Program-made: the position numbers and the translations under genes | Part shown: piece after piece, positions 14,270 to 28,287 of the stretch | Layout of the letters: each line of letters starts with the position of its first letter | Position numbering within the stretch: the first letter of the stretch is position 1 | IMG/VR virus record: IMGVR_UViG_3300008448_000424 | Location: 1 to 30,008 of that record | Reading direction: 5' to 3' (one strand) | Source of the DNA: a virus | DNA length: 30,008 nt | Notes under the pieces: model-generated | Database searches by the model: none | Told to the model about the DNA's origin: nothing | What the model saw: only the letters and a program-made list of their open reading frames with translations

Positions 14270-14670
14270 TTCTTTTTTTCACCATATACTGCATCTAGTT
14301 GTTTCACTATACTTTTCAAATAAGGTGAGGCATCATCTGAAACAGGTGTTGCTGCAGGAGTCTTAGGTTTAGTCTCCTCATCAGCTTTCTTTTCAATTTC
14401 TTCCAATTGTTTCTTTGCAGTAGCTTCTTGCTGTGCAATAATTTCTCTTATACGATCAGCATTACTGTTTATTTCACCAGTTTTTTGTTTAAACTCTTCT
14501 TCTTTTTTATTGAAAAGTTCTTGTTGCATCATATTAAATTTATCAGTAGCTTCATTCCATAAATTGTGGTCGTGAATAGCAAGCCAGGTAAAGAAAGAAC
14601 CAGATAGTAAAACTACTATACCAATTATCTGTCCTATTCTGTTACCCATAAAGAAACTTAAGAATGCCAT
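14266..14670 (-). CDS. Inner-membrane spanin (i-spanin, Rz-like)
   Basis: A 134-residue protein with one N-terminal membrane helix (about residues 12-32, IGQIIGIVVLLSGSFFTWLA), a long charged coiled coil (about 40-100: KFNMMQQELFNKKEEEFKQK onward), and a Pro/Thr-rich linker before a C-terminal helix (YLKSIVKQLDAVYG). This is the classical i-spanin plan. It overlaps the o-spanin start by 4 nt and its own ATG overlaps the lipase stop by 1 nt, so lipase, i-spanin and o-spanin are translated as one block. Confidence 0.75.
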   Translation of the reverse strand: MAFLSFFMGNRIGQIIGIVVLLSGSFFTWLAIHDHNLWNEATDKFNMMQQELFNKKEEEFKQKTGEINSNADRIREIIAQQEATAKKQLEEIEKKADEETKPKTPAATPVSDDASPYLKSIVKQLDAVYGEKKK

Positions 14671-15431
14671 TATTTTTCCTCAGATATTTTCTCGATATAA
14701 TTTGCATACTGTGTTATACTATGATCAGAAAAGTTATCAATCTTACCCTTTTTGAGACCATCTCTCATACCTCTGAAACGATCTTTTATTCTTTGCCATC
14801 CCGTTGGATTTCTCAACTTACCATATGCATTTAGATAATGTTCGATGCCGTGATGTTTGTAACCCATGATAGTAAAAGGAACTCTTGTAACTATATCGTT
14901 ATTGTTAACCCATCTATGATGTTTAACACCCAATGAGTTAGCATATTTTGGCCAACCAACTCTTGGGGATCCATATGTGTAAAGTTCTTCTGGATCTGCT
15001 AAAGACTTATCAAATAAACATCTGCTTGCCATAATAGTTGCCATTGCAGCACCTAGCGAATGGCCACAGAACCAAAGTGTAGTGGATGAATCAAGACTTT
15101 GAATATCTTCTTTTACTAAAGGCCAAAGATCATCAACTTCTTTCTTGAATCCTTTGTGAACTCTTGAAACTGTTTCTGATATTACAGGCCATGCACGAAG
15201 ATCTGCTTTGATATCGTTCCATTGAGTAGGTTGTGTACCGCGGCATGATATTACACAATCATTTTTGTTTTGAAATCTGTAACTTTGTGCACCATCTACA
15301 TCATAATATTCTACCTGATCAAATCCATGCTTCTTAGCTTCTTTAGTTACTTTCTTTTGATCTAGGTAAGATATTTCTGCCAGCTTAGCAAATAACAAGC
15401 TACGTTGAATGAAATTCAAATCTTTAATCAT
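14670..15431 (-). CDS. Class 3 lipase (alpha/beta hydrolase)
   Basis: A 253-residue alpha/beta hydrolase of the fungal/class 3 lipase type: oxyanion-side CRGTQPTQWNDIKADL (63-78), nucleophile elbow WFCGHSLGAAMA (120-131, S125), YTYGSPRVGWPKYA (151-164), D179 in NNNDIVTRVP, and H193 in GYKHHGIEHY. All three catalytic residues are present. No signal peptide is seen, so action in the cytoplasm, or from the inner-membrane side after holin opening, is expected. It sits directly upstream of the spanin pair with overlapping stops/starts, which suggests a membrane-lysis role; tail-associated or virion lipase is the alternative. Confidence 0.85.
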   Translation of the reverse strand: MIKDLNFIQRSLLFAKLAEISYLDQKKVTKEAKKHGFDQVEYYDVDGAQSYRFQNKNDCVISCRGTQPTQWNDIKADLRAWPVISETVSRVHKGFKKEVDDLWPLVKEDIQSLDSSTTLWFCGHSLGAAMATIMASRCLFDKSLADPEELYTYGSPRVGWPKYANSLGVKHHRWVNNNDIVTRVPFTIMGYKHHGIEHYLNAYGKLRNPTGWQRIKDRFRGMRDGLKKGKIDNFSDHSITQYANYIEKISEEK

Positions 15432-16801
15432 GGTCTTCCTAATGATAAAATTTTATCTTGCTTTGTTTTCTTATAATCGTTAAGTTTATCTAGATAACCT
15501 GCGTTGCGAAGTTCTTTAAAGATCAAATTGCCAAAAGCAAATTCGCCTTCTTTTGCAATTGAATCACCTCTCATTTTTTTAATTTTATCTTTAAGAATTT
15601 CAATTGAATCATCACTAACATTATCTGCAATCATTTTATTAATCATATTTTTATAGAATTGAACTTTTTTTTGTAAATGATAATCATTTTCAAAATGCAA
15701 ATCTAACATTTGCGGACGAGCCAACCATCTATTTTGAATTAAAGAATACACACCTTGATTTGCATGAGGTTTCTCATCAACATCTTGTGCATAAAGTTCA
15801 ACAGGATAGCCATATATTGAAATATCAGGATGTTGTAATGTCCAAAGAATTTTCTTGTCTTGTAAATATTCATCCACAAAAGATCGATCAGGATTGATTG
15901 CTGATCTAGAAGTTACAATGTGTAAATCAATATCTGAATTTGGTGTATAATTATAGTTTACATTACCACCTGTTATAACAACATCATGTATTAATACTGG
16001 TGGAATTTTTGTAAATGCTACCCAGGCATCAGCAATTTGAAGAAGTTTATCACGAACCTGATCTTTTAAATTATTTGTTGCATCCCATAATTTAGGATTT
16101 AGTTCTTTATGATATTGTAATGTTGTATCTTCTTTTAAATAAGATTCAACTTTATTTTGAACAGTAATAATTTCAGTTTTACTTTTACCATCTGATCCAG
16201 ATTTTTTAGTATTTAATGGTAAAGCATTTTGAGAACCTTGAACTATAGCTTGCTCAGCCTGAGAAATTTGTTTTGCTCTTTTAATATAGGCAAGAATAGG
16301 TTGTGATGTTAACTTAGATTTTTTTTGATGTTTTAATTGAACTTGACGAGAAATTCCTGGTTCACCTTTAAAAGAACCTGGAGGTTGACCAAGACCTGCA
16401 ATGTCTCCACCACCAGCTGCATTTACTGGTGCACCATCTTCATGTAAATTATTCAAAGTATTAAATATTTCATTGAATTCTTCTGTGACAAAATTTTCAA
16501 TTTCTTCATTGGAAATATCTTCGCGGATAGCTTTAGTTCTTAAAAGAAGCATAGTTGCTGCAATAGTACCAAGTCTTGAGGCACCACCAGGCACTTTTGC
16601 TATTAGCTTTTTAAGGTTAATAACCATAACATCAAATATACCAAGAATTTTTCTTTCGTCTGGTGTAAATCTATTCCTATCTTTAAGAAAATTACCTTTA
16701 TCATCAATAAGACCATATTGATAGGCAGGCATCTTATTAAAAGGTGTTGTTAATTTCTTAATAAATTGATAGGTAAGAACTGTATCAAATACACCAGCCA
16801 T
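15428..16801 (-). CDS. Virion-associated protein with nucleotidyltransferase domain
   Basis: A 457-residue two-part protein. The N-terminal part (about 1-120; 'FDTVLTYQFIKKLTTPFNK', 'AYQYGLIDDKGNF') and the linker 'EDGAPVNAAGGGDIAGLGQP' with 'GEPGIS' resemble conserved proteins of T4-like cyanophages. The C-terminal part has the nucleotidyltransferase signature VVITGGNVNYNYTPNSDIDL followed by HIVTS: GG, S and a DxD pair. Such folds transfer nucleotides to proteins or RNA. The substrate is unknown. The gene lies in the late region between the fibre and lipase genes and overlaps both neighbours by 1-4 nt. A virion location is inferred from context. Confidence 0.7.
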   Translation of the reverse strand: MAGVFDTVLTYQFIKKLTTPFNKMPAYQYGLIDDKGNFLKDRNRFTPDERKILGIFDVMVINLKKLIAKVPGGASRLGTIAATMLLLRTKAIREDISNEEIENFVTEEFNEIFNTLNNLHEDGAPVNAAGGGDIAGLGQPPGSFKGEPGISRQVQLKHQKKSKLTSQPILAYIKRAKQISQAEQAIVQGSQNALPLNTKKSGSDGKSKTEIITVQNKVESYLKEDTTLQYHKELNPKLWDATNNLKDQVRDKLLQIADAWVAFTKIPPVLIHDVVITGGNVNYNYTPNSDIDLHIVTSRSAINPDRSFVDEYLQDKKILWTLQHPDISIYGYPVELYAQDVDEKPHANQGVYSLIQNRWLARPQMLDLHFENDYHLQKKVQFYKNMINKMIADNVSDDSIEILKDKIKKMRGDSIAKEGEFAFGNLIFKELRNAGYLDKLNDYKKTKQDKILSLGRP

Positions 16802-18953: not shown

Positions 18954-18986
18954 TGTTACCCTCTACTATTATTAATTATTTAATTA

Positions 18987-19850
18987 TCAAGAATCAGGAA
19001 GGATTGAATCGTCTGATCCATCACCGGTGATTGTACCCATTGCAACAAGTGTTTCATACTGTACACGACCAGCACGTCCACCTGTACCAACTGTGCGTAC
19101 TACCCAACCAGCATGTGCAACACCTTTGTTGCTACCGCCGCCAACAACTGCTGTTGCAGTAGCAGTTACGCCTTGAAGAGTAGCATCACCAGCTGTGATG
19201 TTGTTACCACTTGCAGGTGTAAAGTTAATATTAGCACCATTAATTGTTGTTGAAAGTTTCCAACCAGTGGTATTAGCAAAGCTAATGAAATATGTTCCGT
19301 TGTCAGTTAAACCAACAGGTGTGGATGTTGCATTACCAGCAAATGTAACTTGGTCTCCAGCAAGGAAGATATCATTTGCAGATGCATATGCAATAAATGC
19401 ACCAATTGTGCTATTTGATGTAATTGCAGTGTTACCATTAAATGTACGAAGAGGTGGTGCTTGTACAGTTAAAGTAGGATTAGTTTCATATGAAGAACCT
19501 GCATTGACAATAGTGTAATCAGTGATTCTACCATCCACTTGTGAAAATGTAACGTTTGCACTAGAACCACCACCACCAGAAATGGTAGATAATACAGTTC
19601 CGTTATAACCAGTACCAGCTTTAGTAATAGTTACTTGCGCTACAACACCTGATCCAACACCAATTTCTGTAGTGTCAACACCAAATTGACCCGCAGTCAT
19701 TTTCATCGCAACACCATTATTATCATAATATTCTGGTGTTATATTATTATAGAAATTATTTCTATTGGTTGATGTAGGTGCCTTATTAAAACCAGTAACA
19801 CCCCATAATACAGAGTTACTGTTTACGTCATTTTTGCCCCATTGTGCCAT
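18987..19850 (-). CDS. Virion structural protein
   Basis: A 287-residue, beta-rich, Gly/Thr-rich protein with almost no charge. The start MAQWGKNDVNSNSVLWGVTG, the internal 'YNNITPEYY' and the C-terminal part 'KGVAHAGWVVRTVGTGGRAG' followed by VQYETLVAMGTITGDGSDD match what I remember of a cyanophage structural protein seen in virion proteomes. A 'GTGYNGTVLSTISGGGGSSA' insert looks like an extra beta domain. AAAGGAG lies before the ATG, and a CATAAATA late-promoter box lies 42-49 nt upstream. Confidence 0.8.
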   Translation of the reverse strand: MAQWGKNDVNSNSVLWGVTGFNKAPTSTNRNNFYNNITPEYYDNNGVAMKMTAGQFGVDTTEIGVGSGVVAQVTITKAGTGYNGTVLSTISGGGGSSANVTFSQVDGRITDYTIVNAGSSYETNPTLTVQAPPLRTFNGNTAITSNSTIGAFIAYASANDIFLAGDQVTFAGNATSTPVGLTDNGTYFISFANTTGWKLSTTINGANINFTPASGNNITAGDATLQGVTATATAVVGGGSNKGVAHAGWVVRTVGTGGRAGRVQYETLVAMGTITGDGSDDSILPDS

Positions 19851-19904: not shown

Positions 19905-20339
19905 TTATTGGAGAGTTGATCTTAACATCCAGGCATGTTTTTTATGAATATCAATACGATCTTGCAAGAAATTGGCTAAACCATGCTCAGAATTTTGCTC
20001 TGCTGCAAGAAATGCTTGAGTCAAAGCATCTATTACTTTATCATTATCTTGAATAGCAATTGATATCATTTGTTGGGCTGGTACTACATCAGTTTGATCT
20101 TTAATTAATGTCAAATCAATAAAACGTGATAAAGATCCTGGTGCAAATCCTTTTGCTGCTCTAATATGTTCGGCAATAGAATCATTAGCAGCAAATACTT
20201 CCTCATAAAGATCACCAAAAAATTCATGATATTGAGGAAAGTTTGGACCTGTTACATTCCAATGAAAAAAATGTAATTTAAGGTAAAAAGAAAAATTAGT
20301 GGCTAGTAACACTTTAAGTTTTTCTAATAGTTGTTCCAT
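19905..20339 (-). CDS. dps: Dps-like ferritin (iron-storage/DNA-protection)
   Basis: A 144-residue four-helix-bundle protein of the Dps/bacterioferritin-like group. The Dps signature is clear: KLHFFHWNVTGPNFPQYHEF (21-40) followed by DLYEEVFAANDSIAEHIRAA (43-62). H26, H38, D53 and E57 match the ligands of the inter-subunit ferroxidase site. The protein lacks the Lys-rich N-terminal tail through which E. coli Dps binds DNA, so iron/peroxide detoxification is better supported than DNA compaction. It lies among late structural genes, so it may be made late or packaged. The next gene upstream overlaps by 1 nt. Confidence 0.9.
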   Translation of the reverse strand: MEQLLEKLKVLLATNFSFYLKLHFFHWNVTGPNFPQYHEFFGDLYEEVFAANDSIAEHIRAAKGFAPGSLSRFIDLTLIKDQTDVVPAQQMISIAIQDNDKVIDALTQAFLAAEQNSEHGLANFLQDRIDIHKKHAWMLRSTLQ

Positions 20340-20521
20340 TATTCGTCTCCGCTTCCAGATGCGCCACCACCACTGCCGCCACCTGAGCTAGCACTTTTTC
20401 CGGGGTAAGCTATGTGTATTTTCATATCAGCTCCTCTATAAGGAAGCTTTTTTAATTTAATTAATTTACCGTCAGGACCCCTAACAGCAAGTTCTTCAAT
20501 ATGTTGTTTAAAGGTTTTCAT
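20339..20521 (-). CDS. Small protein with capsid-targeting-like leader and Gly/Ser tail
   Basis: A 60-residue protein. It starts MKTFKQHIEE, which matches the plan of the T4 capsid-targeting leader MKTYQEFIAE, with I8-x-E10 before a possible cleavage point. A short middle (GPDGKLIKLKKLPYRG) precedes a Gly/Ser-rich tail (SASSGGGSGGGASGSGDE), perhaps a flexible linker. The ATG overlaps the previous stop by 4 nt and its own stop overlaps the Dps-like ATG by 1 nt. An internal head protein delivered into the capsid is possible; the mature peptide would be about 50 residues. Confidence 0.65.
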   Translation of the reverse strand: MKTFKQHIEELAVRGPDGKLIKLKKLPYRGADMKIHIAYPGKSASSGGGSGGGASGSGDE

Positions 20522-20829
20522 ATTTCTTCAACTTTTATTTTTAAATGACCTTGACCTTTGATCACTCTATGAAATTCTTCTGCGGGAATATCAATTCTTG
20601 TTCCTGTTTTAATATTAAAAGGTAGTTCGTTATCAAATTGAAATTGCCAATCATCTCCACACTCAATAACTTCAACTACTCTGTATTTCTTATCTCTATG
20701 CCAGATCAGATCACCTGATTCAACATCTTCTTCAAATACTCTACTGAATTTATTATCAGATAATTTTGTATCTGAATATGGATTACCAATAGAAGCTGCC
20801 ACCACCAGAAAGTCCCAAAGCTTTTGCAT
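20518..20829 (-). CDS. Small beta-rich hypothetical protein, start uncertain
   Basis: The convincing part is 'ESGDLIWHRDKKYRVVEVIE', 'DDWQFQFDNELPFNIKTGTR' and the C-terminal 'HRVIKGQGHLKIKVEEI', which look like a small beta barrel. The frame runs on far upstream through the neighbouring gene in another frame, so the start is a guess: the ATG at 20829 is listed; a GTG at 20802 would give a shorter overlap. Neither has a strong ribosome site. No family recognised. Confidence 0.55.
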   Translation of the reverse strand: MQKLWDFLVVAASIGNPYSDTKLSDNKFSRVFEEDVESGDLIWHRDKKYRVVEVIECGDDWQFQFDNELPFNIKTGTRIDIPAEEFHRVIKGQGHLKIKVEEI

Positions 20830-21346
20830 AACGAGGAAGATTACATGACCAATAAGCAGCAAATGTTCTATCTTTTTGAAGATGACATTTATGACGAGCA
20901 GCAAATGATTTACGTGCTTCTGGATCATTCATTTTTACTGAAAGAGTTGCACCAGAAGCCGCACCATGAACATCGCCAAATGTTACCTTCTTAATTCCAC
21001 CGTCTGGTTTACGAACATAGACGTAGAACTTCTTTGGACCACCTCTTCTTGGTTTACCAATTGGTGGATTTTTTTCATCTTCTTCATTTAAGGGAAGATC
21101 AAGAGGAACTTCCTGCCCCTCATATAATCCAAAAGAACCAATATCTGTTTTGATCAATTCAATATCTGAATATGAAAGATCAATCTTTTCTTCATTATAT
21201 AATTTACGAGCTTCGTTGATGGTTTCAAAAAATTGTTCTGAACCGTAACGAAATACAGATTCATTCAAAGGGATATTATTTTCTAAATGATATAGAAGAC
21301 CTTTGTGCGCAGATTCGTCAAGAAAGTATTCTTTAAAAGATTTCAT
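20783..21346 (-). CDS. Protein with capsid-targeting-like leader and conserved Cys domain
   Basis: The chosen start gives 187 residues: MKSFKEYFLDESAHKGLLYH, an acidic middle (ESVFRYGSEQFFETINEARK onward), and a C-terminal domain with FYVYVRKPDGGIKKVTFGD, DPEARKSFAARHKCHLQKDR and AAYWSCNLPRYAKALGLSGG. The C-terminal domain matches conserved modules of T4-like cyanophage proteins that I know only by motif. The leader fits the T4 capsid-targeting shape with a possible cleavage after L9-D-E11. AAGG stands before the ATG at 21346; a frame extension to 21439 overlaps the upstream gene and is rejected. Confidence 0.75.
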   Translation of the reverse strand: MKSFKEYFLDESAHKGLLYHLENNIPLNESVFRYGSEQFFETINEARKLYNEEKIDLSYSDIELIKTDIGSFGLYEGQEVPLDLPLNEEDEKNPPIGKPRRGGPKKFYVYVRKPDGGIKKVTFGDVHGAASGATLSVKMNDPEARKSFAARHKCHLQKDRTFAAYWSCNLPRYAKALGLSGGGSFYW

Positions 21347-21353
21347 TTTATTA

Positions 21354-23762
21354 TTAACCTTCTGATTTCCAACCACCACCTTTTGATTTATACCATTTAG
21401 CAGCCCAACCATTGGCATAAGCAGATGGATATACATCAAATTTACTTTTTGCTAAAGCTTTAGCTCTGGACCAAAGAGCAGGATTAGTAGGTATATTCTT
21501 TTCTTCTAGATGTTCCACTTCTTCATTCTTTGGTCTCTTTTTTGCTTTTTGCATAGCAATAGCAATAGCAGCCTGTTGTGCCCAATTTTTAGCTTCTGGA
21601 ATTTCTTCAGTCTCTTCTTTCATTTTCTGCATTATTGAACCAGCAATCTTTTTGCCACGTTCTAATGAAATATTTAATTTTTTAGAGTATTGTTTAGCTG
21701 TTCTTTCAAACCAACCCTTATCTTCCGAAATCTTACCTTTTCCGAAGTTAGAAACATTGATTGGTTCACCCTTTCGTTCAGGATTTGGATCATGTTTGCG
21801 CTTTGCTCGTACAGCAGCTGCTCTTTCACTTTTAGAGAGTTTAGCTCTCTTTTCATTTGACATACATTTTGGTTTAGCCTCACCAGGTTCCCTTGCACAA
21901 GGTCCAATCACTTCACCTTTTGAGTTCAACCTTTTCCAACCACCCTCAGGATCTGTTTTACTAAACCATTTACGAAGATCTTCTTTTACTTCCTGATCCG
22001 TTAATGATTCTTCTTTAACTGGAACTGAACCAACTTTTGAACCAAATCTTATTTTATCAACGGCTCTTTGAAGAGTATCAGAGGCTGTTCTAGTCTTAGA
22101 GGGTTTTGGTTTAACACCTCCAATAATATCAGGGCCAAGTGATCTAAGTTTGTTTACCTTACCAACCAATTCAGGAGAAATCTCTTGTAGATTTTCTTTG
22201 TTAAAATTATTATAAAAAGCTAAATCAAGATCTTCTTTTTTATCTTTCTTTTTATTCATGATCTGATCTTCAGTATCTGAATCCTCAGTATCCACCACTG
22301 ATGCATTGTTGGTATGTATACCATGATGTGCTTTTACCATCGCATTGATGATATTATTTCTAGTATCTGCATCATCTGCATTTTTATCAACATAACCTTC
22401 ACTGTCCCCATCGGGATTACCTGATACATTACCAAAACCTCTTATTCCACCTGATCCAGCAGAATTAACAGATTCGTTTTTTTCTTTATCAAGAATGGCT
22501 TGATAATCTTTACCAGCTTGCTGTAATCTAGCTTTGGCAGCCTGTGCTCTTTCTTCGCTATCCTTTAGTTTAGGTAAAGCTCTAACCATCTTTTCCCAAG
22601 GTGATAATTTCTTACCTTCATCAACAATTTTTTTTTGAATAGATTGTTGACGATATGGCTTATCAGATTCTTTTCTATCAGCATCATCTCTTGGAACAAG
22701 ATCAATTTCTTTTCTATCTTGACCAGAACGAGGAACAGCTTCTCTATACTTACCAAATCTCTTATTAAATTCAGAATCGGTTGCTTCTTTTACAGATGTA
22801 TTTGGCTTAGTAATTTTAGCAGGTGCAGGAGCAGTATTATTACCAACTACCTTGGATGATTTGGGCTCACCAGGTGTAACATGTTTAGATAGTGTCACAA
22901 CTGAATCTGATCCATCTTCTCTAAATTTAGTTTCATCATAATTAATATTTTCTTCTGCAATCACCTGATCATAAATTGATCCAATTTCCTCAACTAATGA
23001 TTCTACAATAAATGAACCAAATTCATTGTCAATATCTTCTTTGATTGATTTGATATGATTAGCAATTTCTTCTGCATGAGGGTGCAATGCTTTAGGAAGA
23101 CCTTTTTTCAAACCCTTTATATCTCCAGCTCGAGCCAATGATCTAGCTTTTGTACCTGACATACCTTCAGCACCTTCAGCATCAGGATCTCTATGACCAG
23201 CAGAAACTACTTTAATGGATTTAAAATTAAAATAACTGTGTGGGCCTTCTTTACCATTATACTTGTTAATTAAAGAATGAAATTCTTTTACCCTATCATC
23301 ACCTGCAACCATAGTAATATGCTGAACACCGCTCTTATGAAGACGGGAAAGATGATGAAGAAGAGTAGGATGCTCAGAAGAAGAACTAGAAACATTAGTG
23401 CCTTCTCCGGCAATCTTTTTAAGATACTCAACTTTCTTTTCCTTTGGAAGTGGATTTTTTGCATTGCCTTCAGTATGAGAAGCAATGATATGGGCTTCAG
23501 CACCTTGTGATTTGGCAGTATCCTCAACTTTATGAATTAATTTTTCATGACCAATTGTAGGAGGATTAAAACGGCCAAATGCAAATACAGCTTTTCTTTC
23601 TTTAGCTTCCAATACAGGATTTAAAATGATTTCATCTGGTTTATTGCCAGTAGCAGTTCTGCCTTTAGAGATGACATCCTTGACTATCTCTGTCTTACCC
23701 TTTTTTGCAGGTTTATTATCGGGTTTCAAAATATTTTGCTGAGGATCATTATATTCTGGCAT
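21354..23762 (-). CDS. Large multidomain protein: NMNAT-like plus DUF5872-type end
   Basis: An 802-residue protein. Residues about 57-230 form a nucleotidylyltransferase of the NMNAT/cytidylyltransferase fold: KAVFAFGRFNPPTIGHEKLI (57-76, HxGH-type signature TIGH) and MSGTKARSLARAG (201-213). A long charged linker follows. Then 'WKRLNSKGEVIGPCAREPGE' and 'KCMSNEKRAKLSKSERAAAV' form a Cys-containing repeat module, and the end, FDVYPSAYANGWAAKWYKSK followed by GGGWK, is DUF5872-like. NMNAT-like enzymes make NAD or related dinucleotides; here the reaction is not known. Its place between virion and leader-bearing proteins suggests a large packaged or assembly-associated protein. TTAGGAAAGC precedes the ATG. 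Confidence 0.8.
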   Translation of the reverse strand: MPEYNDPQQNILKPDNKPAKKGKTEIVKDVISKGRTATGNKPDEIILNPVLEAKERKAVFAFGRFNPPTIGHEKLIHKVEDTAKSQGAEAHIIASHTEGNAKNPLPKEKKVEYLKKIAGEGTNVSSSSSEHPTLLHHLSRLHKSGVQHITMVAGDDRVKEFHSLINKYNGKEGPHSYFNFKSIKVVSAGHRDPDAEGAEGMSGTKARSLARAGDIKGLKKGLPKALHPHAEEIANHIKSIKEDIDNEFGSFIVESLVEEIGSIYDQVIAEENINYDETKFREDGSDSVVTLSKHVTPGEPKSSKVVGNNTAPAPAKITKPNTSVKEATDSEFNKRFGKYREAVPRSGQDRKEIDLVPRDDADRKESDKPYRQQSIQKKIVDEGKKLSPWEKMVRALPKLKDSEERAQAAKARLQQAGKDYQAILDKEKNESVNSAGSGGIRGFGNVSGNPDGDSEGYVDKNADDADTRNNIINAMVKAHHGIHTNNASVVDTEDSDTEDQIMNKKKDKKEDLDLAFYNNFNKENLQEISPELVGKVNKLRSLGPDIIGGVKPKPSKTRTASDTLQRAVDKIRFGSKVGSVPVKEESLTDQEVKEDLRKWFSKTDPEGGWKRLNSKGEVIGPCAREPGEAKPKCMSNEKRAKLSKSERAAAVRAKRKHDPNPERKGEPINVSNFGKGKISEDKGWFERTAKQYSKKLNISLERGKKIAGSIMQKMKEETEEIPEAKNWAQQAAIAIAMQKAKKRPKNEEVEHLEEKNIPTNPALWSRAKALAKSKFDVYPSAYANGWAAKWYKSKGGGWKSEG

Positions 23763-23785
23763 CTGCTTTCCTAATGTTTATTTTA

Positions 23786-23793
23786 TATTTATT
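23786..23793 (-). promoter_or_regulatory. T4-type late promoter-like box AATAAATA
   Basis: ACAATAAATATAAAA on the minus strand places AATAAATA 24-31 nt before the 802-residue gene, directly downstream of the preceding virion gene. Confidence 0.5.
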
Positions 23794-23797
23794 GTTC

Positions 23798-25150
23798 TTA
23801 ATAAACTTCTCGCCATTGCATAGTAGTTGCAACATATGTAGTATTAACAGTTGAAAGATTGGTAGCAGTTACTACAAATACCTGTGAATCATTGCTATAA
23901 AAATTTTGTGCAATATAGTTCTTTTTTGCTGTGCTTGGCATATTAGGGCTTGTTGCACCAGCAGATGGTGATGCAGAAGCAGCTCTTGGATTATTAGCTG
24001 TAGCAAACCCGCCATCCATTACTTCTCCATCATCATAGTTAGTAGCAGTAATATTGTACTGTACACCACTAGAAGAATGAACGTTTACCCAAGCACCCCC
24101 GGTAATTACTGAAGTGTTTGCAAGTTTAATAACATCATATCTAACATTCTCATCTGTAGATATGATAGAAATATTACCTAATCTTGCAATCATTCTATTT
24201 GAATAACCATTGAAAGAGTCTTTCAATTTAATAGCCATAATTGGTGTAGTATTACCGCCTGCGAGTAATCTCAAACCACTATGCCAAGAAAAATCTTGCC
24301 CTGATTCTAAATAACCACCTTCAGATATTACTGTAGAACATATCTGATCCATAAAAGCATTCGCTGCTCTTGTACCTGTATTAAATATCTCACATCTTAC
24401 AGGAAGATTAGGACTGCTCATATAGACTTTATCTAGATTATTGCTATTATAGTATTCGTGTGCGGGAACAAATCTCCCATCATGAACAAATCCTGTACGA
24501 ACTCTACCAACTCCCAGCCATTGAAAGTCAATAAACACAATTTGTGTTTTAGTAATATCTAAATTAAAACCTGAAGGACCTTTTCCATCACAAGTATCTA
24601 CATTCCAATTAGCTTGTGTTACTTTTCTGCTATCGTCAGGTGATCCACTAGTATAAGTTCTAATACAGAAACTTAATGTTCCATCACCAGCTTGTTCAAA
24701 GTAAATACCGTTATTATCATCATAATACCCTGTACGTTTGGTAACGTTTGTATTTGCACCATAGAAATTAAATGTTGATTTAATAAGTTGACTCTTTCCA
24801 GGCATATAATGATGATAGAATTTAGTCTGATGAATAACACTACTGGTTGAATTGTTTGCAGTAGTAAGACGGCAGCAGGCTTGATTAGGTAAAAATGTTA
24901 CCGAACCGTTTGCCGTAGTAATATCTTCAAACGCAGGATCAATACCGTAAAGATGTTTGTAGTCACCTAATGTAAAAGCATCAGATGTTCTTAATCTACC
25001 AAATGCATCGGACTGCCCTGCTTCTAATGCTACTGGAAATCTATTATAATCATCATAAAATTGACCGTTGCTATCGGCAGTCATTACTACTTCAAATATA
25101 GTATTTCCATCAGCTAAGAATTTATTTGTGTCACGTCTATATTGTGCCAT
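23798..25150 (-). CDS. Virion structural protein, 450 aa
   Basis: A beta-rich protein starting MAQYRRDTNKFLADGNTIFE. The order 'SDAFGRLRTSDAFTLGDYKH', 'YYDDNNGIYFEQAGDG', 'GKGPSGFNLDITKTQIVFID' followed by FQWLGVGRVRTGFVHDGRF, and 'YMSSPNLPVRCEI' matches structural proteins found in many T4-like and other marine phages. The C-terminal part has Ala/Ser-rich 'AASASPSAGATSPNM'. It is probably a capsid decoration or tail/fibre component; the sequence does not decide. Eight nt separate it from the ligase-like gene upstream, so it shares that late transcript. Confidence 0.85.
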   Translation of the reverse strand: MAQYRRDTNKFLADGNTIFEVVMTADSNGQFYDDYNRFPVALEAGQSDAFGRLRTSDAFTLGDYKHLYGIDPAFEDITTANGSVTFLPNQACCRLTTANNSTSSVIHQTKFYHHYMPGKSQLIKSTFNFYGANTNVTKRTGYYDDNNGIYFEQAGDGTLSFCIRTYTSGSPDDSRKVTQANWNVDTCDGKGPSGFNLDITKTQIVFIDFQWLGVGRVRTGFVHDGRFVPAHEYYNSNNLDKVYMSSPNLPVRCEIFNTGTRAANAFMDQICSTVISEGGYLESGQDFSWHSGLRLLAGGNTTPIMAIKLKDSFNGYSNRMIARLGNISIISTDENVRYDVIKLANTSVITGGAWVNVHSSSGVQYNITATNYDDGEVMDGGFATANNPRAASASPSAGATSPNMPSTAKKNYIAQNFYSNDSQVFVVTATNLSTVNTTYVATTMQWREVY

Positions 25151-25158
25151 TACAAAAT

Positions 25159-26292
25159 TTATCCTCTACCAAATCTTGGATTATTCAATATTGCTGTTGA
25201 TATTTTTCTTGGAACTAGTTTTGCAACAGGTCTTCCACCTTTTTGAAGAACAACACCCTCACCTGCTGATTTCTTTCCATCAATAGATGTTTCCATATCA
25301 GGGTGATGAACACCCTTAAGAACATGCTCTGTTGCTTGTTCTAAATGATGATGTATATCTAAAGACTTTTGAAAATGTTCTGCATGCTTATCAACATGAG
25401 CAATCATAGCAGCATGCTGATCTCTTACTCTTTGTTGAGCAGCAGATGTCTTTAATTTAGATGCTTTCTTTTCAGCAACTGCCTTAAGATGATTCTTATA
25501 TCCTTCAACAGTAGGTAAAGAGTTGCCTCGTGTTGTGCTATTCATATAAGTTGTAAAATGAGTAACATGTTCAGGAGTCAAATGCTTTGTTGTATGACCC
25601 TTGAGAAGCTTCTCAGCGGCAGCAAGATGATGTTCTGTTGCTTTTCTGTCTTCTGCTGAATAATGTTGTGGATCTGGTTTATGCTCATGTTCAGGTACAA
25701 ATACATGTTCACTATGTCTCAAAGCACCCTTTGATAAAGCAGAAGCGGTTTTACCATGAACTTCAGTGTGAATAGCCACACCAAGTGGTGCCTTTGTTTT
25801 TGCTTTATATGTGATTCTGTTTGGTGTTGTTGAGATAGAACTACCAGACTTCTTTGTATGTGTATCAGAAGGGGTATGTAATAGATCACCTTGTACATGA
25901 TGACCTTTGTTTACAATCTCGTGACCATGTGCAAGAAGATGTTTTAAAGATTTTGCATATTCAGGTGCATGACCAAAATGTTTGTCTACTTCTTCTGGAG
26001 TTCTGGCAACTACACCTCTTGCCCATCTATGCTTATCAGATACACCAATTCCTTTTTCATCGTGAATGATATGAACAGAAGCACCACCATCAGTCTTCAA
26101 AGAAGCCTTAATTGTACTAGGCTTGCCTTGTCTATGATTATGAAATTGTTTAATCAGATCCAAACCAGTCTTTACATGTTTAGGATCAGCATAATGTAAT
26201 TCTTTAGCATGAGTAAGATGGGTTAACCCTTCTTCCTCAACAGATGAGGCAGGACGAGCAGCTTCTGTAATATAATTTAAAAATGTTTTCAT
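25159..26292 (-). CDS. His-rich ligase-fold protein with capsid-targeting-like leader
   Basis: A 377-residue protein. MKTFLNYITE|A matches the T4 leader MKTYQEFIAE|A position for position, with I8-T-E10 before A11. The rest follows the order of covalent nucleotidyltransferases (DNA/RNA ligase superfamily): K66-T-D-G69 in ASLKTDGGASVHI (motif I, nucleotide-binding Lys), HHVQGDLLHT (131-140, motif III-like), YKAKTKAPLGVAIHTEVHG, EGVVLQ (345-350, motif IV) and AKLVPRK (357-363, motif V). I recall related phage proteins grouped as DUF6267. Histidine is very abundant. A packaged ligase or nucleotide-transfer enzyme is the best reading, but ligase activity is unproven. Confidence 0.7.
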   Translation of the reverse strand: MKTFLNYITEAARPASSVEEEGLTHLTHAKELHYADPKHVKTGLDLIKQFHNHRQGKPSTIKASLKTDGGASVHIIHDEKGIGVSDKHRWARGVVARTPEEVDKHFGHAPEYAKSLKHLLAHGHEIVNKGHHVQGDLLHTPSDTHTKKSGSSISTTPNRITYKAKTKAPLGVAIHTEVHGKTASALSKGALRHSEHVFVPEHEHKPDPQHYSAEDRKATEHHLAAAEKLLKGHTTKHLTPEHVTHFTTYMNSTTRGNSLPTVEGYKNHLKAVAEKKASKLKTSAAQQRVRDQHAAMIAHVDKHAEHFQKSLDIHHHLEQATEHVLKGVHHPDMETSIDGKKSAGEGVVLQKGGRPVAKLVPRKISTAILNNPRFGRG

Positions 26293-27005
26293 CAGTAAAA
26301 CTTACTAACTTTTCTTGATGCCTCGGGGCCAACCAATACTCTGGTTTTGTTTACACCAAGGTCAGATCTCTTTTTATCAGCTCTTGCAAAAACCATCATA
26401 TGCATATCTTTAGGAACTTCACCACTCTTATAAACATGATTTGATTGTAAAATGTAATGACCTTTTTTACCATTAGGATGAGGAACCAACTTCATTGGAC
26501 CTTGATGAATCTCATGTACATTATTTTCATGATGTGATTCATCACCGTGTCCATGACCATACATTGCCTTTTGAATAAAGCTCTTATGTTCTGGATTAGA
26601 ACTATCAAGCTTCATAGCAACTGTCTCACCAGATACACCCTCTGGATGCTTATTCTTTAATACTGAGGCAAACTTTTTAACAATTAGATGATCCTTAAAT
26701 TTAGACACACCACCAAATTGTTGAAAGTCTTTTACAGAGTTACCATCTTTATGGCTAATAAATCTTTGTGATTGGCCTGCTTTATTTTTAAGAACAAAGT
26801 CTGCTTTAGGAGTTCCAGGAACCTTTTCAACACTACTTACTTTAGTAGGACCATGCTGTGTGTGAATTGTAATTTCTTCAGAACCTGATTCTTTTTTAGC
26901 TTTTTCAATTTGACCATGAAGATCAGCTAAATGACCTTCTTCCTTTTCATAAGGATTAGAACCGGGCATTCTTCTTTCTGTAAGAAAATTTAAAAATGTA
27001 AGCAT
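26292..27005 (-). CDS. Protein with capsid-targeting-like leader, unknown function
   Basis: A 237-residue protein starting MLTFLNFLTERRMPGSNPYE, with the leader shape MxTFxxFxTE (L8-T-E10). The body has 'TPKADFVLKNKAGQSQRFIS' and 'HKDGNSVKDFQQFGGVSKFK', a stretch repeatedly seen in T4-like phage proteins. A D...SHK spacing in this region is reminiscent of PD-(D/E)xK nucleases, but no full nuclease motif can be shown. It is also His-rich near residue 155 (HGHGDESHHENN). It is the first gene after the late promoter at 27031-27038 and its stop overlaps the next ATG by 1 nt. Confidence 0.7.
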   Translation of the reverse strand: MLTFLNFLTERRMPGSNPYEKEEGHLADLHGQIEKAKKESGSEEITIHTQHGPTKVSSVEKVPGTPKADFVLKNKAGQSQRFISHKDGNSVKDFQQFGGVSKFKDHLIVKKFASVLKNKHPEGVSGETVAMKLDSSNPEHKSFIQKAMYGHGHGDESHHENNVHEIHQGPMKLVPHPNGKKGHYILQSNHVYKSGEVPKDMHMMVFARADKKRSDLGVNKTRVLVGPEASRKVSKFY

Positions 27006-27363: not shown

Positions 27364-28287
27364 TTAGTTAATTTGTGACAAAATCTTCTTTACTTCACCT
27401 TTTTGAGCGTCATTTAGAGGAATATAGTCCAAATCCTCAGCATCTTTGTCTCTTGTAAAGGTAAATTCAAAAAACTTAATGGCTTGTTTTGTCACTTCTT
27501 TATCTTCATTATTCTTATACATTACCACATAGGTTGTCGCTACCATTGGCCATGTGGTCTGAAAAGCCTTAATACCAGGAGATACTCTCTTACCATCAGT
27601 GCCAATCATATCAGCAACTTTAAGATTGTTCTGCTTGGCAAATGCATACTCAACATAACCGATAGAACCGTTAGTCTGCATTACGTTAGATGCAACACCA
27701 TCATTTCCTTTACCCCCAATAGTTGTACCAGCCCATTCAATAGATGAACCTTGGCCAAAGTCTTTCTTCCAATCTGCATTTGCTTCTGAAAGATACTTCG
27801 TAAAGTTCCAGGTAGTACCTGAACCATCTGAACGACGAATCTTAATAATAGGAAGATCAGGAAGCTTTACATCTGGATTGATATCTGCAATCTCTTTATC
27901 ATTCCACTTCTTAATCTTATCCATATAGATCTTTGCAATAAGATCATTATTGAGAACTAGATTATCTACTTCTTTGAGATTAACTACAGCAACAATACCT
28001 CCAACAATAATTGGAAATTGAACCTGACCTTTCTTCTCAAGGTCTTCTGGTTTTACTGGTGCATCAGTTGCACCAAATGTTACTGTCTTTGCATCAATCT
28101 GTTTAATACCTGCACTTGAACCAATTGATTGATAGTTTACTTTAATACCTGATGATTTGTCATATTCTGTTGCCCATTTAGAGGCAATGGGAAAAAAGAA
28201 AGATGAACCTGCACCTGTGACTTCACCTGCAAAGGCTGAAGCTGCAATAAACATAGATCCGACAACGGCAAGAATGTTCTTTAACAT
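27364..28287 (-). CDS. pstS: Phosphate-binding protein PstS
   Basis: A 307-residue periplasmic phosphate-binding protein. A signal peptide (MLKN, hydrophobic core, AFA|G21) precedes EVTGAGSSFFFPIASKWATE (22-41), YQSIGSSAGIKQI, TFGATDAPVKPEDL, and RRSDGSGTTWNFTKYLSEA, the phosphate-binding loops of PstS. Host PstS hands phosphate to the PstCAB importer; the phage copy probably keeps phosphate uptake running during infection, as known for cyanophages and pelagiphages. No pstCAB genes are here. It has its own Pho-box promoter. Confidence 0.95.
   Translation of the reverse strand: MLKNILAVVGSMFIAASAFAGEVTGAGSSFFFPIASKWATEYDKSSGIKVNYQSIGSSAGIKQIDAKTVTFGATDAPVKPEDLEKKGQVQFPIIVGGIVAVVNLKEVDNLVLNNDLIAKIYMDKIKKWNDKEIADINPDVKLPDLPIIKIRRSDGSGTTWNFTKYLSEANADWKKDFGQGSSIEWAGTTIGGKGNDGVASNVMQTNGSIGYVEYAFAKQNNLKVADMIGTDGKRVSPGIKAFQTTWPMVATTYVVMYKNNEDKEVTKQAIKFFEFTFTRDKDAEDLDYIPLNDAQKGEVKKILSQIN

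Follow-up and report, generated by a model that had tools for sequence, protein, structure and literature searches.

In the internal protein IPIII of phage T4, ten residues suffice for packaging, and mutations have assigned targeting to residues 4 and 7 and processing to residues 8 and 10 (PMC9026906, in excerpt). The same review raises the possibility that this leader is a route by which T4-like phages load diverse proteins. IPI, IPII and IPIII are described as small inhibitors of restriction enzymes (excerpts of PMC12373910 and PMC3012670), and Alt is a known head-borne enzyme that is injected (PMC5512222, in excerpt). Head-packed payloads also include the polyvalent and ejection proteins (DdrB of P1; head proteins of phiKZ, 201phi2-1 and SPN3US), several of which are cut by a prohead protease. 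The excerpts of this literature place the phiKZ cleavage after S/A-x-E and describe no shared ten-residue tag.

Mass spectrometry of cyanophage virions detected cytidylyltransferase or NMNAT-like proteins in S-CREM2, S-SCSM1 and S-SZBM1, and a kinase and a SAM hydrolase in S-CREM2. The authors of these studies proposed that such enzymes are carried in the virion (PMC10665884, in excerpt), and those of S-CREM2 cautioned that they may be carry-over from the lysate. The S-CREM2 text mentions no leader, signal sequence, capsid targeting or "N-termin".

The DNA analysed here (the window, 30,008 nucleotides) is part of the genome of a T4-like marine myophage; a megablast of half of it against phages gave no match. 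Four of its proteins begin with a T4-like leader, and we consider it probable (about 0.78) that they are the cargo of a T4-type capsid-targeting system, loaded into the head and released with the DNA. The sequence-only reading had put forward a possible cargo system of a kind that it had not seen described. In principle the idea is already present in PMC9026906 and PMC10665884, but the excerpts of neither tie the leader to virion-carried enzymes, and among the papers found to use the term "capsid targeting sequence" none has a title that names cyanophage or marine. T4 already provides the mechanism; the new element is that marine T4-like phages have a payload of enzymes.

Leaders of the Four Window Proteins

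The four leader-bearing ORFs and their N-termini were confirmed, all on the minus strand, at 25159-26292 (MKTFLNYITE/A, the slash marking the cut), 26292-27005 (MLTFLNFLTE/R), 20339-20521 (MKTFKQHIEE/L) and 20783-21346 (MKSFKEYFLDE/S). The leaders are as follows.

26263..26292, minus strand: leader MKTFLNYITE of the DUF6267 protein; F4, Y7, I8 and E10 obey the T4 IPIII rule; predicted cut after E10
26976..27005, minus strand: leader MLTFLNFLTE of the 237-aa protein; obeys the T4 IPIII rule; predicted cut after E10
20492..20521, minus strand: leader MKTFKQHIEE of the 60-aa protein; matches the rule, with H at position 7
21314..21346, minus strand: variant leader MKSFKEYFLDE, longer by one residue, on the 187-aa protein; supported by relatives in G001 and phage C48C1

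The first three share the ten-residue register of the T4 IPII and IPIII leader, MKTYQEFIAE/A, with its aromatic residues at positions 4 and 7, I or L at position 8 and E at position 10, so that the alignment through residue 10 proposed earlier holds for them. All four window leaders have phenylalanine at position 4, followed at position 7 by Y, F, H and Y, respectively, and the gp21 cut motif (L/I)-x-E stands at positions 8 to 10 in three of the four. The window leaders obey the residue rule mapped by mutation in T4 IPIII. The fourth leader has D at position 10 and L-D-E at positions 9 to 11, reaches the cut motif only with a shift, and fits neither of the two patterns used for the statistics below. 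The observation is nearly confirmed for this leader. An 82%-identical relative of the protein in G001 begins MKSFKEHFNE/E in the ten-residue register; it also supports the start chosen here, an ATG that lies inside a longer ORF. The motif FLTE of the 237-aa leader recurs in a related contig, where it marks the presumed cut of gp23 (QQSGFLTE/TPV). Because the same kind of tag as in T4 stands on several proteins, these are probably packed into the phage head.

Frequency of the Leader and the Question of Chance

MKTF-like starts come easily in AT-rich genomes because the codons of K and F are A/T-rich, and the shared N-termini might accordingly reflect chance or a preference of translation starts for such sequences. 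Within the window, a strict pattern matched three proteins and 0 of 95 internal Met positions; shuffling of the N-termini gave an expectation of 0.004, and none of 2000 shuffles reached three. A second pattern, built on the T4 mutational data, matched three against 0.02 expected. These figures are not blind, because both patterns were composed after the window leaders had been seen. S-CREM2 (see below) and genomes chosen by their portal are the fairer test. Four genomes (contigs) picked by portal homology alone gave ten matches against 0.26 expected. Across 17 sequences the rule matched 37 of 7,507 candidate starts, against 1.01 expected by shuffling each N-terminus, and 13 of 81,238 internal positions; a 65-aa protein of G002 that fits the rule was dropped from this count by the gene filter. 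On the shuffles and the internal-position controls a chance origin is rejected, and residues 4, 7, 8 and 10 are held while their neighbors drift. We therefore give chance or start preference almost no weight.

Four of the 17 sequences have a single match each, a count reached by 25-39 of 500 shuffles, and S-PM2 and phiM12 have none, so that not all T4-like phages carry the tag. An earlier, looser pattern that allowed E or D at position 10 was tightened because it also caught unrelated starts, among them that of T4 thymidylate synthase (MKQYQDLIKD). The tightened rule misses the second ADP-ribosyltransferase of G010 (D at position 10), a 317-aa protein of G011 (for which tblastn found no match), a 330-aa protein of G002, and T4 IPI.

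The DUF6267 Protein

25159..26262, minus strand: body of the DUF6267 protein; PF19782, E 5.5e-28; K-T-D-G, Q-G-D-L-L-H and E-G-V-V stretches

The match to PF19782 scored 98.8 bits against a curated cut-off of 27; the term "DUF6267" was not found in the literature searched. Twenty DUF6267 loci were located in relatives through patterns in the body, and the leader was present at all 18 in which the start could be read. The 12 distinct leaders among them all have F4, F or Y at position 7, I or L at position 8 and E10, while positions 2, 3, 5, 6 and 9 drift (entropy 1.2-2.2 bits). Four cyanophage DUF6267 proteins whose start was read have no leader and begin at the body. The gene adjoining DUF6267 is very diverged or different among relatives, and a leader or leader-like start is still found there in 12 of 18 loci.

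Members of the nucleotidyltransferase/ligase superfamily carry, in order, the motifs KxDG, (D/E)GxxV and then K. By eye, in alignments, the three stretches of the DUF6267 body have a nucleotidyltransferase/ligase-like appearance; K66, D68 and G69 are invariant in nine diverse sequences, and EG-V lies near the C-terminus of the full-length ones. Assignment as a ligase was pursued and found no support beyond the motifs. A PDB profile search returned no ligase, and the poor structural model (pLDDT 59) had no Foldseek match in the PDB at E<=0.001. Its five matches at that threshold in BFVD were unnamed phage proteins and a cytidyltransferase-like protein of S-PM2. In hhalign, three T4 ligases reached probabilities of 0.2-2.0, compared with 0.1-2.7 for seven control proteins.

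The Nuclease-like and Smaller Proteins

26292..26975, minus strand: body of the 237-aa protein; phrog_13937, E 7.9e-33; possible PD-(D/E)xK nuclease (PKADF ... SHK)
20339..20491, minus strand: body of the 60-aa protein; small, Gly/Ser-rich; 57% identity over 42 aa to a G002 protein
20783..21313, minus strand: body of the 187-aa protein; phrog_7595 C-terminal domain, E 1.6e-10

The PD-(D/E)xK nuclease motif consists of a catalytic D followed downstream by (D/E/S/Q)xK. In the 237-aa protein, D69 and S84-H85-K86 are invariant in six sequences, which is consistent with a possible nuclease of this type. The top structural match of its predicted model (pLDDT 69) was MspI, a weak match (Z 5.0, 166 aligned residues, 5.3 A) followed by DrdV (3.2) and splicing endonuclease subunits (2.9) amid unrelated proteins; Foldseek gave no match at E<=0.001, and a PDB profile search found nothing.

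Both smaller proteins have tagged relatives. The G002 relative of the 60-aa protein is 67 aa long with the leader MKTFREFLDE, and the 187-aa protein has a tagged relative of 105 aa in phage C48C1 (39% identity over 101 aa; leader MKKFKQYIDE).

Tagged Proteins and the Head Protease in Relatives

The leader also occurs on unrelated proteins of related phages: ADP-ribosyltransferases, a protein in the prohead-core position, and the SAM hydrolase, kinase and cytidylyltransferase of S-CREM2. T4 likewise places one leader on otherwise unrelated internal proteins. Unlike those small inhibitors, the tagged marine-phage proteins are larger, partly enzyme-like and encoded in a conserved gene set. In the T4-like relative G010, two ADP-ribosyltransferases bear the leader, and their profile matches are Alt-like (E 1.9e-17 and 9.6e-16); the head-borne enzyme Alt itself differs in starting MELITELFDE, outside the F4/F7 pattern. 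Enzyme-like domains had been claimed for the mature parts of the window proteins. The claim is firm for tagged proteins of relatives (from Pfam for the ADP-ribosyltransferases, from the S-CREM2 annotation for SAM hydrolase, kinase and cytidylyltransferase) and stands at the level of motifs for the two large cargo proteins of the window.

All 15 T4-like records that contain the head region encode a gp21-type (S77) prohead protease, as in T4; one of them is G006, which has a portal 100% identical to the G001 portal. Head genes appear to be absent from the window, and neither the S77 protease nor the capsid protein was found in the five fragments nearest to it; both are known from relatives.

The leader could instead mark prohead core or scaffold proteins, which would shape the prohead or help to pack the DNA and then be cut up, expelled or kept, rather than delivered as effectors. 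In G008 the gene for a tagged protein stands between those for the portal and the protease, the place of core proteins 67 and 68 in T4. Several internal L/I-x-E sites in the 187-aa protein and in an untagged neighbor of 802 aa recall the T4 core proteins, which are cleaved into several fragments (review, in excerpt). The catalytic domains of other tagged proteins (the ADP-ribosyltransferases; the S-CREM2 SAM hydrolase and kinase) argue against a core role, and the gene beside DUF6267, different or highly diverged between close relatives, is ill-suited to core building. We regard this explanation as unlikely.

21354..23762, minus strand: 802-aa cytidylyltransferase-containing protein, no leader; phrog_3041, E 3.3e-55
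23798..25150, minus strand: 450-aa virion structural protein; phrog_1645, head and packaging, E 1.7e-115

The 450-aa gene sits between the cytidylyltransferase and DUF6267 genes. Relatives of the nuclease-like, DUF6267 and cytidylyltransferase genes are clustered in DLP_6 and S-PRM1, and those of the latter two also lie close together in S-PM2 and Sf-FP1. Products of such a cluster would share the head with the DNA at maturation and might work there, for example as a nuclease and a ligase-like enzyme in DNA packaging or end repair, with no need of injection. It is not obvious what substrate the tagged ADP-ribosyltransferases, kinase and SAM hydrolase would have within a head, and we judge work confined to the head to be a distinctly improbable account.

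Cyanophage Virion Proteomes

The strict pattern occurs in 3 of 219 S-CREM2 proteins, and all three belong to the 52 that published mass spectrometry detected in the virion (p=0.013). The S-SZBM1 cytidylyltransferase, which begins MRFRQFIIE/A, was likewise detected in virions in the published proteome. The only S-SZBM1 protein to match the full ten-residue rule, SSZBM1_191, was not among the 30 detected proteins, and SSZBM1_139 was detected without a leader. With the T4-mapped residues conserved, the protease in all 15 records and tagged proteins in the virions of two cyanophages, the proposal that the T4-type capsid-targeting sequence serves to pack proteins into the head is well supported. 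For the window phage, we infer cleavage and packaging, injection, cargo function and the enzyme activities.

Proposed Route and Function of the Cargo

The cargo proteins would presumably be made late, each with its short N-terminal tag, of which residues 4 and 7 would bring the protein to the core of the prohead. Cleavage after (L/I)-x-E by the head protease (gp21, S77) would then leave the mature protein free in the head, and the DNA would be packed around it there. In mature form these proteins, of which at least some are enzymes, would most likely exit with the DNA and act in the cell ahead of phage gene expression. For the DUF6267 and 237-aa proteins, our best guess is that one is a nuclease and the other an enzyme of nucleic-acid end-joining or nucleotide transfer, both acting on DNA at entry, in repair of the phage's own ends or nicks, attack on foreign DNA, or counter-defence.

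More tentatively, and with somewhat less than even confidence, marine T4-like phages may carry a modular, tag-addressed enzyme payload, with the ten-residue tag gained and lost under selection and the tagged set injected so that host takeover and suppression of defence start ahead of transcription. The payload would combine a recurring cassette of nuclease, DUF6267 and cytidylyltransferase with swappable ADP-ribosyltransferases, kinase, SAM hydrolase, ParB-like and HEAT-repeat proteins. If so, untagged family members would act only late in the cell, and an enzyme would move between injected and cytoplasmic roles as the tag is gained or lost. The rule predicts which uncharacterised ocean-phage proteins ride in the head and offers a reason for the recurring enzymes of cyanophage virion proteomes; mass-spectrometry data that already exist allow the rule to be tested. 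T4-like heads may further represent a natural library of packed protein cargo, with new functions in the early takeover of marine bacterial hosts.

Untagged Neighbors

No ADP-ribosyltransferase was detected among the ten window proteins scanned. The 802-aa protein matches gp154 and gp160 of S-CREM2, both detected in virions, and some of its relatives bear the leader. One further untagged protein has a virion-detected counterpart.

15428..16801, minus strand: 457-aa protein with a C-terminal nucleotidyltransferase-like domain, no leader; matches S-CREM2 gp156

The similarity to gp156, which was found in S-CREM2 virions, amounts to 46% over 230 aa (E 1e-54).

Leader Register and Pattern Frequency

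The sequence-only reading had proposed T4-like capsid-targeting leaders, each cut after a glutamate, at four N-termini in the window, and their positions were confirmed.

Leader-bearing proteins of the window
20339-20521, 60-aa protein, MKTFKQHIEE
20783-21346, 187-aa protein, MKSFKEYFLDE
25159-26292, DUF6267 (PF19782) protein, MKTFLNYITE
26292-27005, 237-aa protein, MLTFLNFLTE

Three of the leaders match the T4 register exactly, as had been claimed, and the 187-aa protein carries one extra residue. A strict pattern gave three matches in the window, against 0.004 expected from shuffling. A second rule, M..[FY]..[FYH][ILV].E, was derived from mutational data on T4 IPIII, with H permitted at position 7 because one window leader has it. 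In the part of that source consulted (PMC9026906), ten residues are enough for packaging, positions 4 and 7 count for targeting and positions 8 and 10 for processing, and D at position 10 inhibits cutting but not targeting. Across 17 sequences (the window and T4 among them), the rule matched 37 of 7,507 candidate starts vs. 1.01 expected from shuffled N-termini, matches that are neither blind nor wholly independent because some genomes were picked for holding the tagged family and because the window and its near relative G001 are near-duplicates. At internal positions of the same sequences there were 13 matches in 81,238.

The four contigs G008-G011, selected solely for portal homology and length, yielded 10 matches against 0.26 expected, one of which (MEEYVGYVME in G008) looks like chance. 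Single matches occurred in G009, DLP_6, S-PRM1 and S-SZBM1, a number reached in 25-39 of 500 shuffles, and none in S-PM2 and phiM12. No match was found on a gene nameable as replication or metabolism, and most matches are unnamed. In T4 the rule recovered IPII, IPIII and gene 61.1 and missed IPI. Gene 61.1 (positions 18966-19130 of T4 record L143; 54 aa, annotated as hypothetical) starts with MKTFKEFIKE|D, which fits the rule as IPII and IPIII do, and its product may be a T4 internal protein that has so far been missed.

The Leader on DUF6267 and Its Neighbors

Twenty DUF6267 loci were found by one scan with peptide patterns situated in the body rather than the leader, and the leader was present in all 18 whose start was read. 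The 12 distinct leaders all have F4 and E10 (12/12 each), with F or Y at position 7 and I or L at position 8, and the entropy at positions 2, 3, 5, 6, and 9 was 1.2-2.2 bits. The same four positions are kept in five further tagged DUF6267 proteins (G008, G011, DLP_6, Melnitz-3, and C48C1); those of G008 and G011 were spotted through the leader and those of Melnitz-3 and C48C1 because the match extended into it, the start being taken from a TTG in Melnitz-3 and from the second Met in C48C1. The DUF6267 proteins of S-PRM1, Sf-FP1, S-PM2, and S-SZBM1 lack the leader and begin at the body. The presence of the leader on some DUF6267 proteins and its absence from others that start at the body argues that it is an add-on module. 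In S-PM2 (L005 8920-10699, AJ630128) DUF6267 and a cytidylyltransferase are divided between two ORFs that jointly look like one fused protein, and BFVD contains a matching 591-aa S-PM2 protein.

The protein adjoining DUF6267 had a leader or leader-like start in 12 of 18 loci. Four loci contained the window-type 237-aa protein (phrog_13937) with its leader, six contained tagged proteins of 316-341 aa, and two a 324-aa protein whose leader-like start (MLTFSDYQSLQE) is longer; untagged or other ORFs were present in the remaining six (L014, L015, L019, L021, L023, and L024). Profile scans covered four of the six 316-341 aa proteins. Those of loci L017 and L020 matched phrog_13937 (E 7e-13 and 1e-11) and are therefore distant relatives of the 237-aa protein; that of L011 matched phrog_26930 and that of L013 a tail profile only (E 4e-4). 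Given this variety, the slot is occupied by diverged or different proteins.

The tag was also detected on other proteins. Contig G010 (L133 3028-4819) encodes two tandem leader-bearing ADP-ribosyltransferases, which match PF03496 at E 1.9e-17 and 9.6e-16; the second has D at position 10 and fits only a looser pattern. Also tagged in G010 are a 459-aa protein matching PF25735 and one of 127 aa whose ParB-like match is weak. G009 has a tagged HEAT-repeat protein, and in G008 a tagged protein lies between portal and protease. Several tagged genes, DUF6267 included, are clustered in the isolates Melnitz-3 and C48C1. The Melnitz-3 cytidylyltransferase starts with MKKFSEIIE, noted by eye and outside the rule. 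The C48C1 cytidylyltransferase (L208 7688-9031) has the leader MIKNFSQYLLE when read from an in-frame start upstream of the annotated one, which looks too late.

Head Genes of Close Relatives

The window record is a 30-kb viral sequence with near-identical contigs. The DUF6267 protein of G001 (118 kb) is 97% identical to that of the window, and neck, terminase, sheath, tube, and portal genes, read by eye, follow in T4 order until the sequence ends shortly past the portal. Record L045 has a portal 100% identical to that of G001, followed by a protease (Peptidase_S77, E 5.5e-39), a scaffold and a major capsid protein, the last two named by eye. Near residue 59 the capsid protein has QQSGFLTE|TPV, read by eye as a putative cut site; the equivalent place in T4 gp23 is GSFLTE|AEIGG. 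The same four letters, FLTE, end the leader of the window's 237-aa protein.

Evidence from Virions of Other Phages

Both the tag and its role in T4 have been described before, and reviewers expected it to be general among T4-like phages (PMC9026906, consulted in part); enzymes in cyanophage virions are likewise known. No statement connecting the two was found in the literature searched (papers and passages), and as far as that literature shows, joining the T4-type tag to virion-carried enzymes is new here.

The consulted part of the study on Synechococcus phage S-CREM2 reports 52 proteins detected in virions (PMC10665884). The strict pattern, fixed before S-CREM2 was looked at, matched three of 219 S-CREM2 proteins, a SAM hydrolase, an APH/ChoK-like kinase and a cytidylyltransferase, all of which were virion-detected (Fisher p = 0.013). 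A wider pattern, drawn up after some S-CREM2 starts had been seen, added gp13, a virion protein, and gp175, which was not detected (p = 0.012). The S-SZBM1 cytidylyltransferase, which starts with MRFRQFIIE|A, was detected in virions, and the leaderless DUF6267 protein of this phage is not in the set of 30 detected proteins in the portion of the report used (PMC9146016). Excerpts of a further study place cytidylyltransferase cluster T4-GC190 in S-SM1 virions (PMC3037559). Against this, SSZBM1_191, the sole 10-residue rule match of S-SZBM1, is missing from the same 30 proteins, SSZBM1_139 was detected though leaderless, and the S-CREM2 authors, in the part consulted, caution against lysate carry-over (PMC10665884).

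Possible Functions and Other Window Genes

Neither a described function for DUF6267 nor the name itself was found in the literature searched, although the domain occurs in 471 phage records. With its KxDG, QGD, and EG-V stretches it looks like a nucleotidyltransferase, an identity that a poor structure model and other comparisons did not confirm. The 237-aa protein resembles PD-(D/E)xK nucleases; D69 and K86 do not vary among six sequences, and the top structural match, MspI (Z 5.0), falls short of the score needed for a safe match. In DLP_6 and S-PRM1, relatives of the two proteins adjoin each other with a cytidylyltransferase nearby. DUF6267 and the 237-aa protein could form a DNA-acting pair employed at entry.

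Other genes of the window
14670-15431, candidate class 3 lipase-like protein, by eye (CGHSLGAAMA)
15428-16801, leaderless 457-aa protein; nucleotidyltransferase-like half 46% identical to virion-detected S-CREM2 gp156
20518-20928, listed gene; homology to an 89-aa protein of Methylophilales phage Melnitz only from about 20784 down
21354-23762, leaderless 802-aa protein; its cytidylyltransferase region and a second region each correspond to a different virion-detected S-CREM2 protein (gp154 and gp160)
27364-28287, candidate PstS-like phosphate-binding protein, by eye

The 802-aa protein has several internal L/I-x-E sites, and a YLKE|D site precedes the nucleotidyltransferase-like domain of the 457-aa protein. 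The gene at 20518-20928 overlaps the 187-aa gene at its listed start, which is probably incorrect.
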